Source: Bacillota bacterium (lineage in GTDB: Bacteria; Bacillota; Bacilli; Bacillales; Cytobacillaceae). Taken from it: 64,000 nucleotides of DNA. Below the pieces are notes generated by a model. That model saw nothing but the letters and a program-made list of their open reading frames with translations, was not told the DNA's origin and did not search any database. The position numbers and the translations under genes are program-made. Shown piece by piece: positions 26,358 to 32,375 of this stretch (the first letter of the stretch is position 1; each line of letters opens with the position of its first letter). The stretch is taken from NCBI GenBank assembly GCA_030705955.1, contig JAUZPL010000002.1, positions 62,001 through 126,000 of the forward strand. Direction: 5' to 3'.

Positions 26358-26481
26358 GTATTTGGCAAAATCAGTTTTTTAAAAAATAAATTTAAAAATA
26401 TGGAGTTTAGCTATTAAAATTCAACGAGATGTTATGTTACACTAAAGGATAAAAGCGAACAAGAAGTTGAGGGGTAGGAAA

Positions 26482-27624
26482 ATGGTAAAGACGGTATTGT
26501 TTGATGTAGATGGTGTATTGTTGAGCGAAGAGCATTACTTTGATGCCTCTGGTCTGACAGTTTGGGAAATGTTAGTAAGTAAGAATTACTTAGGACTGGC
26601 TCCAGAGCAATTTAAAACTGAATATAGTGAAGCTGAGATTGCAGTAATAAGAAAGCGTGTTTTTGAACATGATCAGGTATTAAAGTTTTGTAAATCCCGT
26701 GGATTAAACGCAAATTGGGACATGATTTATTTGGCTTTTAGCTACCAACTAATTTATTTGTTATCTCAAATTAAAGAAAGTGAATTGGAACATATTAAAG
26801 GATGGCTTGGAAAAGAAATTACAAGGGAAACGTTGTTAGATATAGGGCAGATTCTTGCTCGCTATGATGTTCAAATGAGATTTGATTTGTTTGTTGAGGA
26901 TTTCCGCGGTTCTTCAGAAACAAAACAAGGGCTTATGAATCACCTGGATCTTTTAGCTAGTGAAAAGTTAGGATTTGAAACAAGTATTTTTAAAAATAAG
27001 GGTACTTTATGGTCTGTTTGTGAACATGTTTCTCAAGAATGGTATGTAGGGGATGAAAATGTTTTAGCTTCAACTGGGAGACCATCTGTCCAGCTTGGGA
27101 AGAAGGGATTTCTTGCAAATGAAACAACCTTGTGTTCTCCAGAAGAAATACATCAACTTTTTGAATGTCTAAAAGCAAAGGATGTATTTATTGGAATTGG
27201 GACAGGGAGACCTGAATTAGAAACCATTCAGCCGTTTCAACATTTAGGCTGGATTCAATATTTTGATGAAAATCACATTATTACGGCCGATGAGGTTTTA
27301 AAGGCCCAAAAGGTGGTAAACCAGAAGCAGTCTTTGTCCAAACCACATCCATTTACTTATTTAATGGGACTAGCAGGGAAGAATAGCTCTGTAACAGACT
27401 GTTTGGATCAACGCTTACCAATAAAAAATGGTGAAGAGGTATTGATTGTCGGGGATTCTTTAGCAGATCTACTAGCTGCCCGGCAAATGGGCTGCCAGTT
27501 TGCAGCCGTGTTAACAGGTTTATCTGGTAAGGATGCTAGAGGTGAATTTGAACAACATCAAGCAGACTACATTTTAGATTCAGTTTTAGATATAAAGGAG
27601 TTAATTCTAACTCTAATTAAATAG
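26482..27624 (+). CDS. HAD-family hydrolase, large helical insertion
   Basis: 380 residues. Motif I VLFDVDGVLLSEE is at the N terminus, motif II in IGIGTGRPELE, the motif III Lys in SKPHPFTYL and motif IV in VLIVGDSLADLLAARQMG. About 230 residues between motifs I and II form an unusually long helical cap. Substrate unknown. ATG 26482 is 7 bases after GAGGGG; the TTG five codons earlier overlaps that site. Its terminator has been split by an IS element directly downstream. Confidence 0.78.
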   Translation: MVKTVLFDVDGVLLSEEHYFDASGLTVWEMLVSKNYLGLAPEQFKTEYSEAEIAVIRKRVFEHDQVLKFCKSRGLNANWDMIYLAFSYQLIYLLSQIKESELEHIKGWLGKEITRETLLDIGQILARYDVQMRFDLFVEDFRGSSETKQGLMNHLDLLASEKLGFETSIFKNKGTLWSVCEHVSQEWYVGDENVLASTGRPSVQLGKKGFLANETTLCSPEEIHQLFECLKAKDVFIGIGTGRPELETIQPFQHLGWIQYFDENHIITADEVLKAQKVVNQKQSLSKPHPFTYLMGLAGKNSSVTDCLDQRLPIKNGEEVLIVGDSLADLLAARQMGCQFAAVLTGLSGKDARGEFEQHQADYILDSVLDIKELILTLIK

Positions 27625-27637
27625 CCAAACAAAAAAC

Positions 27638-27660
27638 ACTGCATCCCTAATGAATGCAGT
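27638..27660. repeat. Left copy of a 23-bp duplicated terminator hairpin flanking the IS element
   Basis: The stem ACTGCAT ... ATGCAGT with loop CCCTAATGA is identical to 29537-29559 and in the same orientation. An A tract lies to its left, but the matching T tract is missing on its right, where the element begins. Confidence 0.85.
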
Positions 27661-27662
27661 CA

Positions 27663-27695
27663 GGCTGTCGAAAAACATTCGATAGCCTTTAATTT
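27663..27695 (+). terminator. Inward-facing terminator in the left IS end
   Basis: GGCTGTCGAA (27663-27672) pairs with TTCGATAGCC (27678-27687), one G-T pair, five-base loop, then TTTAATTTC. It would stop transcripts entering from the HAD gene. Confidence 0.6.
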
Positions 27696-27728
27696 CACTC
27701 ATTTTCTTTAATTATTCACCGCGTTAAT

Positions 27729-27738
27729 TTGGTATAAT
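27729..27738 (+). promoter_or_regulatory. Extended -10 promoter in the IS left end
   Basis: TGGTATAAT contains an extended -10 (TG-N-TATAAT; TATAAT at 27733-27738). No good -35 is visible. It points toward the transposase. Confidence 0.45.
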
Positions 27739-27766
27739 GTAATTAGTACATAAGCTTTTAAACAGG

Positions 27767-27900
27767 TCTGTTGATTTCCGCTCCAGTCGCTCGCTTTCCG
27801 CGGGCGTGCCGGGGAGCTTCCTCGGCGCTGATGCGCCTGCGGGATCTCCCCAGCCACGTACTCCCGCAGGAGTCGAGCGCCTTCCGCTCCAATCAACAGA
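27767..27900. repeat. 134-bp GC-rich palindromic repeat, left copy
   Basis: It begins TCTGTTGATT and ends AATCAACAGA, perfect complements, with GC-rich internal inverted segments (CTCCCCAG, TCCCGCAGGAG). The reverse complement aligns along its length with 29313-29446. Composition is very unlike the AT-rich surroundings. It would lie in the 5' leader of the transposase transcript. Confidence 0.85.
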
Positions 27901-27958
27901 GTGTTGTTCAATTAAGACTTTCAGCTCTACTAATTAATAATAAAAGCGGTGAAATTAA

Positions 27959-29303
27959 TGTTTAAGCCAAAAGATTCTAGTCAAAATGAATATGAATTTG
28001 TATCTACTGATGAATTGGTACCTGATGACCATCTCCTTCGTTAATTGAAAAATATATTGATTTTTCGTTTCTTCTAGAAAAAATTCGTCCATATTACAGC
28101 GATGATAATGGACGCCCAACTGATCCCCTCATACTTTTTAAAATGATGTTTATTAGTTAAATTTATGGCATTCGTTCTGAACGTCAACTAGAAAGAGAAA
28201 TTAGAACAAACGTCGCCTACCGCTCGTTTTTAGGTCTAAAATTCAAGGACTCAGTACCTCATCACTCTACGATTAGTTGGAATCGTCAACACCGTTTTAA
28301 AGATACTACTATTTTTCAGGATATTTTTGATGAGATTGTTCTTCTAGCAATGAATTATAGGATGGTTGGTGGACGTGTTTTATTTACGGATTCTACACAC
28401 TTAAAGGCAAACGCAAATAAAAACAAGAAGTGGAAATAGATACCCGAGAGTATTTTGATGACTTAAACAAGGCGATTGAAGAGGATAGACTTAAACACGG
28501 AAAAAGGCCATTAAAAGAGAAGGAGAAAGTGAAAGAAACTAAGGAAATTCGAGTAAGTACAACTGACCCTGAATGTGGTTTTATGTCCCGTGAAAATAAG
28601 CAAGAAATGTTCTGTTACCTTGACCACCGAACTACAGACATGAAGTTTAATATAATTACGGACGTATATGTTACTCCTGGTAATGTTCATGATTCCGTTT
28701 CATATCTTAGTCGGTTGGACCGTCAGGTCCAACGTTTTGGATTTAAGATAGAAGCAGTAGCTTTAGATTCAGGTTATCTTACAAGTCCTATTTGTAAGGG
28801 ACTTTCTGAACGGAAAATTTTTGGAGTCATTGCCCATAGAAGATACCATCCTACCACTGGTTTATTTCCTAAATGGAAATTTACAAGTGATAAAGAGCAT
28901 GATCTGTATATTTGCCCCAACAACCAAAAATTAACATACAAAACTACAACCCGTGAGGGATATAGAGAATATAAGTCTGATTCAAAGAAGTGTATGAACT
29001 GTCCATTACTTTTCCAAAAATAAGATAAAAGTTGTAACACGACATGTATGGGAGGAGCATAAGGAAAAGGTAAGGTTGAATCGCTTATCCAAATCGGGAA
29101 AGATGCTTTATAAATTTAGAAAGGAAAAAATTGAGCGAAGCTTTACAGACTCAAAAGAGCTGCATGGGCTTCGCTACTGCCAGTTACGGGGATTGAAGAA
29201 TGCACGTGGACAGGCTCTTCTTACCGCAGCCTGCCAAAATATAAAACAGATTGCAACACTACTAGCAAGGTTAGAAAAAGTGTGTTGCAATAATTTAAGT
29301 TGA
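27959..29303 (+). pseudogene. IS1182-family transposase, inactivated
   Basis: Translation begins MFKPKDSSQNEYEFVSTDEL and breaks after PDDHLLR at a stop (TAA near 28042) caused by a frameshift. The shifted frame continues IEKYIDFSF and reaches an in-frame TAA in place of a sense codon near 28158, then runs through the catalytic region with FTDSTHLKANANK. Another frameshift near 28430 leads to DTREYFDDLNKAIEED ... CYLDHRTTDMKFNIITD, and a last one near 29020 precedes the end (IERSFTDSKELHGLRY, ALLTAACQNIK). At least four lesions; all domains of the DDE transposase are still recognisable. Confidence 0.85.
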
Positions 29304-29312
29304 TTTAACCCC

Positions 29313-29446
29313 CTGTTTATTGGAGCGGAGGGCACTCGACTCCTGCGGGATATAGAGGTCACTGGAGACCCCGCAAGCGCCAAAGGCGCTGAGGAGGCTC
29401 CAGGACCTCCCCGCGGAAAGCGAGTGCTCGCAGCGGAAATCAACAG
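29313..29446. repeat. 134-bp GC-rich palindromic repeat, right copy
   Basis: It starts CTGTTTATTGGAGCGGA and ends GCGGAAATCAACAG. It is the inverted counterpart of 27767-27900, identical in length, with scattered differences mostly in the middle. Confidence 0.85.
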
Positions 29447-29490
29447 GCCCATTTGCATGGATAATTAATAAATTAAGTATTTAGATACTG

Positions 29491-29532
29491 ACAAAATAAA
29501 AATTGCCGAGAAAAATACCCCTTTCTCGACAA
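29491..29532 (-). terminator. Inward-facing terminator in the right IS end
   Basis: TTGCCGAGAAA (29503-29513) and TTTCTCGACAA (29522-29532) form a stem with one wobble pair. On the minus strand it is followed by TTTTTATTTTG, so it would stop transcripts arriving from serA. Confidence 0.65.
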
Positions 29533-29536
29533 TCTG

Positions 29537-29559
29537 ACTGCATCCCTAATGAATGCAGT
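29537..29559. repeat. Right copy of the 23-bp duplicated terminator hairpin
   Basis: Identical to 27638-27660 and followed by GTTTTTTG. Joined to the left flank it restores one continuous bidirectional terminator with A tract, stem and T tract. Confidence 0.85.
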
Positions 29560-29584
29560 GTTTTTTGATTTTTACCTACAATTC

Positions 29585-31225
29585 CTATCTGCTCTCCACT
29601 TTTTCATGCTCGAATTGACCTGGATAAGAAGAGTCAACATTCAATAGCTCAAGAAATTGTGCTTCCTTTAAACCGTTAATGGATCCTAAGGAACGAAGAA
29701 CTTCTTCTTTTAGTATTTTATCAAGGGTAAGGACCATGATGGCTTCCCCGCCGACGGTTGTTCTGCCTACCTGCATCGTTCCGATGTTTATTTGGTAATC
29801 TCCCAGAAGAGAGCCAACCTTTCCAATCATGCCTGGGATATCTTGATGTTTGATATATAATAAATATCTTTCAGGTCTTACGTCAATCCGATACTCGTTT
29901 ATTTTCACAATTCTTCCGCCATAACCATTTAAAACGGTAGCACCAATACTTGCTTTTAAATCTCCTCTTGATACTGTTAATTCCATATAATTTGCAAAAC
30001 CTTTATTGGTCGCATTCTTTTGAACGTTATATGAAACACCTTGGTCTTTTAATAAATGAAAGACATTAATGAGATTAACAGAATCACTCAAGTGATGTGA
30101 TAAAACACCTTTTATCATTGTTCGAGTTAATAAATCCGTGTCCTCTTCGATTAGTTCACCATAATAGTTGATATCTATTTTGGTTGGGGCCTCTTTAAAT
30201 AACTGAATGATAAGACTTCCAACCTGATCACCAAGCAATAAATAAGGCTTTATTTTTTGCTGAGCTTCTCCAGACATTTGCGGCATATTGACTGCATTTT
30301 GAATGGCTCCGGATTCAAAGATTTCAATAATTTCAGCACTAACTTCTTCTGCAACCTTTTCTTGTGCTTCGACAGTTGATGCACCAAGATGAGGGGTTAC
30401 AATAATATTGGTTTCTCGAAGAAGGTCAAGGTTCGCAACAGGTTCTTTTTCAAAAACATCTAACGCAGCTCCGGCAACATGTCCAGACTGTATGGCCTTG
30501 ACAAGGGCGTGTTCATCAATAATTCCACCTCTTGCACAATTTATAAATCTAACCCCTTTTTTTGTTTTTTGTAAAAAATCATCACTAATTAATCCTTTTG
30601 TTTCATTGGTTAGTGGCGTATGGGTTGTAATAAAGTCGGATTCCCTTGCAATCGTATCAAGAGTAGCTTTAGTAATACCAAGTTTTTCTGCTTTTTCCGT
30701 TGAAAGATAAGGATCAAATCCTAAAATATTCATCCCAAATGCTTTAGCACGCTTTGCTACTTCAATTCCAATCTTCCCCATACCGATGACACCAAGGGTT
30801 TTTTTGTACAATTCTACCCCTTTAAAGGAATTTCGGTCCCAGTTTCCAAGGGATGTTTTCAGGTGTGCTTGTGGGATTTTTCTAGCTAATGACAGCATCA
30901 TAGCTAGAGTATGCTCTGTAGCTGCAATGGTATTGGCCCCAGGAGCATTAATAACTATAATCCCCTTTTTTGTTGAAGCATTAACATCAATGTTATCCAC
31001 TCCTACACCAGCACGTGCAATTACCCTGAGCCGATTACCATGCTGAAGTAGAGAGTCTGTAACCTTTGTTTGACTTCGAACAATCAATGCGTCATATTCT
31101 CCAATGATTTTTGCCAATTCTTCTTCCGGCAAGGTAGGGAATTGATCAATGGAAAAACGGGGGTGATCAAATAACCTTTTTAAACCAGTTTCGCTAATTC
31201 CATCTGTAACAAGAACTTTATACAT
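29585..31225 (-). CDS. serA: D-3-phosphoglycerate dehydrogenase
   Basis: 546 residues, the long SerA form: substrate and NAD domains (VTDGISETGLKRLF, LGVIGMGKIGIEVAKRAKAFGM, RGGIIDEHAL, catalytic His in PHLGAST), an intervening ASB domain and a C-terminal ACT domain (YLLYIKHQDIPGMIGKVGSL) that senses serine. It starts serine synthesis from 3-phosphoglycerate. ATG at 31225 overlaps the end of the aminotransferase gene; AGGAGG lies 12 bases before it. The pair is under a T-box leader. Its terminator has been interrupted by the IS element. Confidence 0.9.
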   Translation of the reverse strand: MYKVLVTDGISETGLKRLFDHPRFSIDQFPTLPEEELAKIIGEYDALIVRSQTKVTDSLLQHGNRLRVIARAGVGVDNIDVNASTKKGIIVINAPGANTIAATEHTLAMMLSLARKIPQAHLKTSLGNWDRNSFKGVELYKKTLGVIGMGKIGIEVAKRAKAFGMNILGFDPYLSTEKAEKLGITKATLDTIARESDFITTHTPLTNETKGLISDDFLQKTKKGVRFINCARGGIIDEHALVKAIQSGHVAGAALDVFEKEPVANLDLLRETNIIVTPHLGASTVEAQEKVAEEVSAEIIEIFESGAIQNAVNMPQMSGEAQQKIKPYLLLGDQVGSLIIQLFKEAPTKIDINYYGELIEEDTDLLTRTMIKGVLSHHLSDSVNLINVFHLLKDQGVSYNVQKNATNKGFANYMELTVSRGDLKASIGATVLNGYGGRIVKINEYRIDVRPERYLLYIKHQDIPGMIGKVGSLLGDYQINIGTMQVGRTTVGGEAIMVLTLDKILKEEVLRSLGSINGLKEAQFLELLNVDSSYPGQFEHEKVESR

Positions 31226-32375
31226 TTTGCAACCATACCTCCTGTGCTCTTTTAGTGGCAACACCTAATACCTGTTTTCTATCCAATTCATGAAGTGTCA
31301 TTTCAATACTGCTCAATATTTTTAAAACATCAAATGGGGTACAGTAACCCATGTGACCAATTCTAAAAATTTCACCCTTAAGCCTTTTTTGTCCTCCACC
31401 AAGCGTAATGGCAAATTTGTCTTGAAGCATTTTTTTAATTTGTTTAGAAGAATCATCTGCTGTTTTAACTGCTGTAACAGTTGGTGAAGCCTCACTATCT
31501 GAAACAAGAAGAGGAAGTTCAATTGCTTCTAATCCCACGCGAACCATGTCCTTTAGAACCTGATGACGTTTAATCACATTATGAAATCCTTCTTCCTCAA
31601 TCATTTGGCACACCTCTTGAGCACCATAAATGAGAGAGACGGCTGGGGTAAAAGGAGTAGATTTTTCTTTTTCATAGGATGATAAATATTTATTTAAATC
31701 CAGGTAAAACCGTTTTGATTGGCATTTTTCAATGGTTTCCCTTGCCCTTTCACTAATTGCAACAAAGGCTAATCCAGGCGGCAGCATTAACGCTTTTTGA
31801 GAGCCAGAAACGAGAATATCAATTCCCCATTCCTCCATCTCGACCGGAACGGCCCCGATACAGCTTACTCCGTCAACTACGAATAGGGCATCAGTCGATT
31901 GCTTTGTTACTTTTCCTAATTCCAAAATGGGATTCAAAACACCTGTTGAGGTCTCACAATAAGTGGCAAAGACAGCTTTTACATTTTTTTGTAAGGATTT
32001 TAAATAATCCTCTAATTGATCAGGTGAGCATGTTTTTCCCCATTCAATATTTAAACGATGAACATTTGCTCCAAAGGCTTCGCAAATACTTGCCAGTCGA
32101 TCTCCAAAAGCTCCAGTAACAATAACTACGACTTCATCATTTTCCTCCACAACATTTGAAACAGCCGTTTCTAAAGCAGAAGTTCCGCTTCCAGCAATGA
32201 CTAATACGGGAAGCAAAGAGCCGAAAACTGGCATTAATCTTGTGGAGACATCTTCTAAAAGCTTAGGAAATGCATTTCCACGATGGCCAATCATTGGTTG
32301 ATTCATGGCATGATAGACACGATTGGGAACGGGAGTGGGACCAGGGGTAAATAAAAACTGTTGATCTAAAAGCAT
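31218..32375 (-). CDS. PLP-dependent aminotransferase of the alanine-glyoxylate/serine-pyruvate family
   Basis: 385 residues, fold type I class V: opening FTPGPTPVPNRV, the PLP Asp in VVDGVSCIGAVP and the Schiff-base Lys in VSGSQKALMLPPGL. It is translationally coupled to serA (8-base overlap) behind a T-box. The partnership suggests it transaminates 3-phosphohydroxypyruvate, filling the SerC role, or interconverts serine/glycine with glyoxylate or pyruvate. No serC or serB is in the window. AAGGATG lies 8 bases before ATG. Substrate is inferred from context. Confidence 0.82.
   Translation of the reverse strand: MLLDQQFLFTPGPTPVPNRVYHAMNQPMIGHRGNAFPKLLEDVSTRLMPVFGSLLPVLVIAGSGTSALETAVSNVVEENDEVVVIVTGAFGDRLASICEAFGANVHRLNIEWGKTCSPDQLEDYLKSLQKNVKAVFATYCETSTGVLNPILELGKVTKQSTDALFVVDGVSCIGAVPVEMEEWGIDILVSGSQKALMLPPGLAFVAISERARETIEKCQSKRFYLDLNKYLSSYEKEKSTPFTPAVSLIYGAQEVCQMIEEEGFHNVIKRHQVLKDMVRVGLEAIELPLLVSDSEASPTVTAVKTADDSSKQIKKMLQDKFAITLGGGQKRLKGEIFRIGHMGYCTPFDVLKILSSIEMTLHELDRKQVLGVATKRAQEVWLQNV

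Follow-up and report, generated by a model that had tools for sequence, protein, structure and literature searches.

Duplication of whole terminator hairpins by a clade of IS1182-family insertion sequences

Transposases normally cut their target with a fixed stagger, which leads to target duplications of set length. Among the closest systems described so far are IS1272 and TnSha1 of staphylococci, members of the IS1182 family whose targets, according to the parts of PMC4923244 and PMC5678879 considered here, are inverted repeats or hairpins of unrelated sequence, several of them confirmed terminators. Specifically, Furi et al. describe the insertion of TnSha1/IS1272 into hairpins, with partial deletion of the hairpin and no duplication (PMC4923244, in part), and Wan et al. 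describe the replacement of the hairpin, proposing a replacement pathway for IS1272 (PMC5678879, in part); in Figure 13 of the latter article, pathway b depicts the duplication of a whole stem-loop as a possibility. As reported in excerpts of the same two articles, Siguier et al. (2015) stated that some IS1182 members target palindromes. In addition, ISfinder, as cited in an excerpt of PMC7335449, gives direct repeats of 2–60 bp for the IS1182 family, which is there called an extreme case.

We analysed a stretch of 64,000 nucleotides from a Bacillota contig (JAUZPL010000002.1), hereafter the window. An insertion sequence of 1876 bp, delimited by its terminal repeats and by the boundaries of a direct repeat, occupies positions 27661–29536 (+ strand). 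On both sides it is bordered by the 23-mer ACTGCATCCCTAATGAATGCAGT (27638–27660 and 29537–29559), 100% identical and in the same orientation, which repeat search and folding identify as a palindromic stem-loop with 7-bp arms and a 9-nt loop. An A tract (27631–27636, +) lies before the left copy and a T tract (29561–29566, +) after the right one. When the flanks are joined through a single copy of the 23-mer, the resulting 53 nt read as A tract, 7+9+7 stem-loop and T tract, and refold with −19.0 kcal/mol (z −8.0), a value equalled by none of 200 shuffles. This original bidirectional terminator is shared by two convergent open reading frames, both reading towards the insertion and named as in the original prediction: a HAD-family-like gene on the left (26467–27624, +) and a serA-like gene on the right (29585–31264, −). 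In the window, as at other sites of this type, the stem extends outward beyond the cut through A:T pairs, here between the A and T tracts, so that the cut does not lie at the foot of the longest possible hairpin. The original prediction had described an element flanked by identical, same-orientation terminator copies, had proposed that its removal together with one copy restores the terminator of the HAD and serA genes, and had taken this to be a palindrome-targeting insertion; coordinates, lengths and refolding bear out this description of the site.

The terminal repeats of the element, CAGGCTGTCGAAAAA (27661–27675, +) and CAGATTGTCGAGAAA (29522–29536, −), are imperfect, with 8 of the first 10 bases in agreement. 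Each end contains an inward-facing terminator-like hairpin followed by T-rich DNA: 11 pairs at 27662–27688 (+; −16.1 kcal/mol, z −6.6) and 16 pairs at 29500–29535 (−; −17.7 kcal/mol, z −6.5). Long GC-rich subterminal inverted repeats lie further inside, one with arms at 27734–27828 and 29386–29480 (71% complementary), the other at 27862–27905 and 29307–29350. Stretches resembling these repeats recur in the genome, where the element has 74 matches, many of them at contig ends.

Open reading frames and profile matches place the transposase gene at 27958–29303 (+). It is broken, as the reading frame jumps and stops occur in all three frames, and its longest intact piece (28430–29020) encodes 197 aa. 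This piece matches NCBIfam NF033551, the IS1182-family transposase profile, over profile positions 190–401 (1.5e-49, 169.2 bits); it stays under the 270-bit whole-protein cut-off because it is a fragment of a broken gene, and intact clade members, for example L153, exceed that cut-off. Both the transposase match and the terminal inverted repeats thus place the element in the IS1182 family, whose transposase we take to be of the DDE type. Matches to DDE_Tnp_1_6 and DDE_Tnp_1 fall slightly below the Pfam cut-offs, and an alignment of 18 clade members contains five invariant aspartates and no invariant glutamate. The intact piece of the window copy is 82–89% identical to its counterparts in L032, L033, L042, L044 and L053, all of which carry the duplication. 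The broken transposase of the window itself forms no row in the trees described below, in which L032, L042, L044 and L053 are clade rows.

The assembly is broken inside many copies of the element; therefore, ends rather than whole copies were analysed in the same genome. A pattern search found 43 exact terminal-repeat matches, all readable together with their flank. Seventeen left ends are joined to 17 right ends by the same flank of 17–32 bp (15 exact, two with one mismatch), the window copy being one of these pairs, and each of the 17 shared flanks is a hairpin. Of the nine ends left unpaired, six likewise adjoin a hairpin (score of at least 5). By this tolerant score, with left and right contig ends paired, 40 of the 43 ends abut a hairpin at a score of at least 5, and no abutting hairpin was found at the other three (L108, L121, L140). 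A strict score requiring perfect pairing, by which 31 of the 43 ends have a perfect abutting stem of at least 5 pairs against 4.5% of 20,000 random positions, was replaced since it missed hairpins with a mismatch or a shift.

Two loci of this genome deserve separate mention. L140 holds, at 932–969, a solitary right-end hairpin of the element, the rest of which is missing, and no hairpin target adjoins it. L146 (797–1087; G000 C157:30196–30486) holds 291 bp with one-mismatch CAG-type ends, too small for a transposase and a candidate miniature element, whose flanks by eye are two diverged 24-bp copies (19/24 alike) of an ACAAAAC..GTTTTGT hairpin.

Complete copies were collected from relatives. 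A contig scan yielded 54 loci, and a family search of 398 Bacillota genomes found the family in 68 of them (E ≤1e-80), from which further copies were taken. Boundaries were set by the terminal repeats (CAG..TGT in this group) and a length prior; repeat-first detection was dropped, because choosing boundaries by the direct repeat would bias the count. No row was made for loci that lack one end or have ends of another type. From 68 rows, 66 distinct complete CAG-type copies were retained after removal of L041 (the same element as L038) and L220 (a false motif); L180 and L204, which have CAG-type ends with another IS inside, were kept. Direct repeats of 16–35 bp flank 58 of the 66 copies, 49 exactly and nine with 1–2 mismatches, and the window copy is one of these 58. 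The duplicated segment is a palindrome: at least 80% of the arm positions are paired in 51 of the 58 repeats, against 17 of 23,200 control windows of the same length from the same flanks (0.07%), and in 53 of the 58 the dyad centre is the repeat centre. The seven repeats below 80% symmetry (L032, L038, L043, L044, L158, L185, L209) look like shifted or mismatched hairpins.

No matching repeat was found around the other eight of the 66 copies (L040, L046, L047, L072, L073, L155, L163, L168). All eight have a hairpin score of at least 5 on at least one side, and five have a score of at least 4 on both, the background being 5.0% at score 5 and 16% at score 4. This is as expected if these copies arose by recombination between copies.

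The same type of insertion was observed outside chromosomal contexts of the Bacillota survey, in 17 plasmid and phage loci hand-picked from the match lists (L278 not among them), which include Rhizobium, Aminobacter, Sphingobium, Vibrio and Salinivibrio, some of them proteobacterial. CAG-type ends were found in all 17 (one end reading TAG in L263), and 16 are flanked by a hairpin duplication; in L264 two right ends tied in score and the one with the repeat was chosen. The exception, L265, lies between two different hairpins with no matching repeat. In two Aminobacter plasmids, the element sits in the same 20-bp hairpin, a terminator between kynU and an ABC-transporter ATPase gene, in opposite orientation and with identical 20-bp boundaries (left hairpin copies at L272 1933–1952 and L273 1922–1941). 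The flanks of this pair are 99.6% identical over 980 nt and the elements 98.6% identical. Two independent insertions are the simplest reading, although a single insertion that was later inverted may also account for the pair.

By combining the 58 duplications with the 16 from plasmids and phages, we examined the position of the cut at 74 sites. All 74 repeats differ in sequence, and their length is 22.7 ± 4.2 bp (range 16–35). The duplication of the window had been put forward as unusually long; in this respect the original prediction does not hold, as 23 bp is ordinary for the group. Inside the repeat, 81% of the outermost positions and 91–97% of the next six are paired, and just outside it pairing amounts to 61–76% for three positions (the left side being mainly A), then to 42–46% for five. 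Of the 74 repeats, 66 begin with A and 61 end with T. Taken together, the pairing and base profiles indicate that the cut tends to fall at the border between a G+C-richer stem and an A/T tract, alike on both strands.

Most of the targets have the features of intrinsic terminators. Among the 58 sites, the 8 bases that precede the left repeat include 5 or more A in 41 (control 8.9%), and the 8 that follow the right repeat include 5 or more T in 39 (control 6.9%); 52 sites have at least one of these tracts and six have neither. By crude ORF calls, 29 of 65 sites lie between convergent genes, 30 between tandem and 6 between divergent ones (one more was incomplete), and these counts depart from a 25/50/25 expectation (p = 0.0002).

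The hairpins in the element ends also recur. In 81 copies (64 of the 66, plus the 17 from plasmids and phages), 60 left and 41 right ends carry such a hairpin with 4 or more T among the 8 bases that follow it, compared to 5.6% of 4371 control positions. After insertion, the transcript of each neighbour meets its own copy of the target hairpin and then the hairpin of the element end with its T-rich DNA. As judged from sequence and folding, these inward end hairpins probably stop read-through from both neighbours.

We looked for the site before insertion in related records. A homologue of the left, HAD-like gene is present in 10 of 61 genomes, that of the window included. In four of the nine others (L097, from the same genus as the window, L098, L100 and L105), a serA homologue, located by tblastn with the serA-like protein of the window, is convergent with and close to this gene; in the remaining five, none was found beside it within the stretch examined. 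The intergenic stretch of the four relatives holds one strong hairpin, in single copy, and no element, with weaker unrelated stems besides in the folds of L100 and L105. In this case, the hairpin sequences differ from that of the window, so that the comparison gives the arrangement rather than a base-for-base empty site. Base-level comparison was provided by four other insertion sites, for which seven empty records were taken from 3, 103, 35 and 7 matching records per site (self included). All seven near-identical records lack the element and have one hairpin where the filled site has two. At a B. subtilis plasmid site, both empty records (one of B. velezensis, the other of B. subtilis) agree with the filled one over 600 of 600 positions of the joined flanks, and in the other five records 593–599 of 600 positions agree. 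These empty records are direct proof of duplication.

A comparison with relatives and a survey of other copies had been suggested as checks of the original prediction. No double repeat was found in these relatives and records without the element, and terminator hairpins are preferred by the copies of the same genome, of relatives, and of plasmids and phages. The observation is therefore confirmed and general beyond the window, and the mechanism originally proposed is supported in outline; the dependence of the duplication length on the hairpin was a point absent from it.

A first tree was built from 103 of 106 clustered transposase sequences (L079, L150 and L061 out). In it, all 40 CAG-type hairpin-flanked rows belong to one group of 46 (SH-like support 100), and in the other six rows of this group a visible end also abuts a hairpin, by eye. 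A second tree, computed with a mixture model on 80 rows, left out 26 of the 106, mostly long-branched sequences or sequences with undetermined ends and partly for speed; the 45 group rows kept form one side of a branch (SH-aLRT 99). Among the 26 is one hairpin row, L273, the annotated CDS of which has a length not divisible by three. Outside the clade, where 29 rows of the 103-row tree have no determined ends, no hairpin duplication was recognised except in L180 and L204. These two have a hairpin duplication around CAG-type ends and, inside, a transposase of another branch; since they enclose another IS, the hairpin label in the tree was not given to their transposase.

The enclosed IS is an IS1182 relative with 4-bp ACGT repeats, found inside CAG-type ends in L180, L203 and L204 of one Bacillota genome (G294). 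In L180 and L204, hairpin duplications surround the composite as a whole (roughly 1.93 kb), giving the impression of a small passive element that acquired another IS.

Other types within the family have short repeats, namely 8–9 bp next to GAGGCCACTGAA-like ends (L208, L214, L235) and 4 bp, CTAG or ACGT (L240, L252). A generic inverted-repeat scan of all family members often set false boundaries for single copies, and its results were kept only for multi-copy types or clear motifs. A further type, the GGGG-type Bacillota relatives ending in GGGGCTGT, had both ends found in 29 of 36 loci (for example L173, L202 and L215). Its left flank is A-rich in 22 of the 29 copies and its right flank T-rich in 19 (at least 5 of 8 bases; controls 7.9% and 8.1%). 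None of the 29 has a duplication of more than 3 bp. This arrangement resembles a terminator in which the element has taken the place of the hairpin.

On the basis of these comparative data, it is very probable that the hairpin-duplicating IS1182 clade inserts at the symmetric points of a palindrome, that the hairpin sets the duplication, and that a cruciform or hairpin is the form likely to be recognised. Specifically, the target would be a palindrome, perfect or nearly so and in most cases an intrinsic terminator, into which the transposase inserts the element at two symmetric points. With insertion at these points, the staggered cut would span the whole stem-loop, and gap repair would leave the element with a complete hairpin on either side. 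The hairpin, and not a fixed stagger of the enzyme, would then set how long the duplication is (16–35 bp), while locally the cut would tend to have an A directly after it on one side and a T directly before it on the other. We infer that the palindrome is most likely recognised in extruded form, as a cruciform or hairpin whose formation supercoiling at transcribed gene ends would favour, and that the 3′ ends of the element may attack the 5′ feet of both cruciform hairpins. This strand chemistry would match pathway b of Wan et al. (PMC5678879), as far as the part of that article considered here describes it.

Alternatively, the transposase could read a symmetric base sequence in the DNA duplex, with a consensus at each cut, and palindromes would be a by-product. 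The preference for a first A (66/74) and a last T (61/74), together with A-rich DNA outside, does form a mild consensus at the cut. However, when arms were swapped between equal-length sites, none of 262 combinations reached 80% pairing, with a mean of 0.35 against 0.88 observed; there is no common arm sequence, and this control largely refutes the duplex-consensus reading. The dyad also stays central over repeat lengths of 16 to 35 bp, and the 74 repeats all differ, so that we regard this explanation as highly improbable. A location near gene ends (29 convergent, 30 tandem and 6 divergent of 65, by crude ORF calls) would also be expected if insertion were random and selection spared the copies in terminators as the least harmful ones. 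Selection, however, cannot centre the repeat on the dyad (53/58) or tie the duplication length to the hairpin, and the other IS1182 types in the survey have short repeats (8–9 bp; 4 bp), which leaves random insertion with a very slim chance.

Transcription could act more directly, through recruitment of the transposase by a polymerase paused at the terminator, or by a nascent RNA hairpin or R-loop. The A or T tracts at 52 of the 58 targets and the proximity of targets to gene 3′ ends agree with such a role, but six of the 58 sites have neither tract, six of 65 lie between divergent genes (by crude ORF calls), and the two-strand symmetry fits a DNA cruciform without RNA; we therefore consider recruitment via transcription possible, though doubtful. 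As to the idea that both repeats predate the insertion or came from recombination, we found nothing in its support: no close relative was seen with two hairpins and no element, and a single hairpin is present both in the seven near-identical records of four sites and in the four HAD–serA relatives, which makes this origin of the repeats next to inconceivable. Insertion at the symmetric points of a palindrome, with the hairpin setting the duplication, is thus the reading that we adopt.

The same behaviour is seen in relatives from many bacteria, so it seems to be DNA shape that chooses both the site and the stretch that is copied, and not a set sequence or length. The duplicated length follows DNA structure in copies from both Bacillota and Proteobacteria, and the duplications may serve as a natural readout for the formation of cruciforms or hairpins in vivo. 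A dependence on structure would explain why the direct repeats reported for the IS1182 family differ so extremely in length. The data also suggest a safe mode of landing: a terminator has no coding function, both sides retain the hairpin, and inward-facing terminators come with the element itself. Intact elements, available from harmless bacteria, could be used to ask how a transposase recognises structure rather than sequence. More broadly, we see about an even chance that a cross-phylum DDE clade reads DNA secondary structure, with the hairpin fixing both site and stagger, that another branch of the family loses the hairpin, and that one family switches between duplication and deletion by the point of attack at the hairpin foot, which would explain the 2–60 bp range.

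Insertion of IS1182-family elements into hairpins is already known from the published accounts, in the parts considered here. As far as our searches reach, the new elements are the duplicating clade, the hairpin-set length of the duplication and its spread over two phyla. In the open-access literature, searched by titles and abstract openings, we did not find whole-hairpin duplication as the actual mode of an IS1182 branch; the Siguier et al. 2015 review and ISfinder may say more. Likewise, neither the branch responsible nor an identity of duplication and hairpin was found in the portions of PMC4923244, PMC5678879 and PMC7335449 considered here. A copy annotated as ISSep1 (L278), fetched to place IS1272 in the tree, showed no clear ends in the stretches examined.

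Compared to the described systems, the window element resembles IS1272/TnSha1, as these are known from parts of the published accounts, in belonging to the same family and in targeting hairpins; however, IS1272 and TnSha1 lose the hairpin and leave no duplication, whereas the window element, whose target hairpin is present twice, duplicates it as a whole. With the GGGGCTGT-ended relatives, the window clade shares the position between an A-rich left and a T-rich right flank but, unlike them, it produces a duplication. The nearest annotated counterpart within the hairpin clade is ISBspe1, from a plasmid of Alkalihalophilus pseudofirmus OF4 (L268), which is 64.8% identical to the 197-aa piece of the window and is flanked by the 20-bp hairpin repeat ACCACATCTATTGATGTGGT; its transposase is annotated as one open CDS, whereas that of the window is broken.
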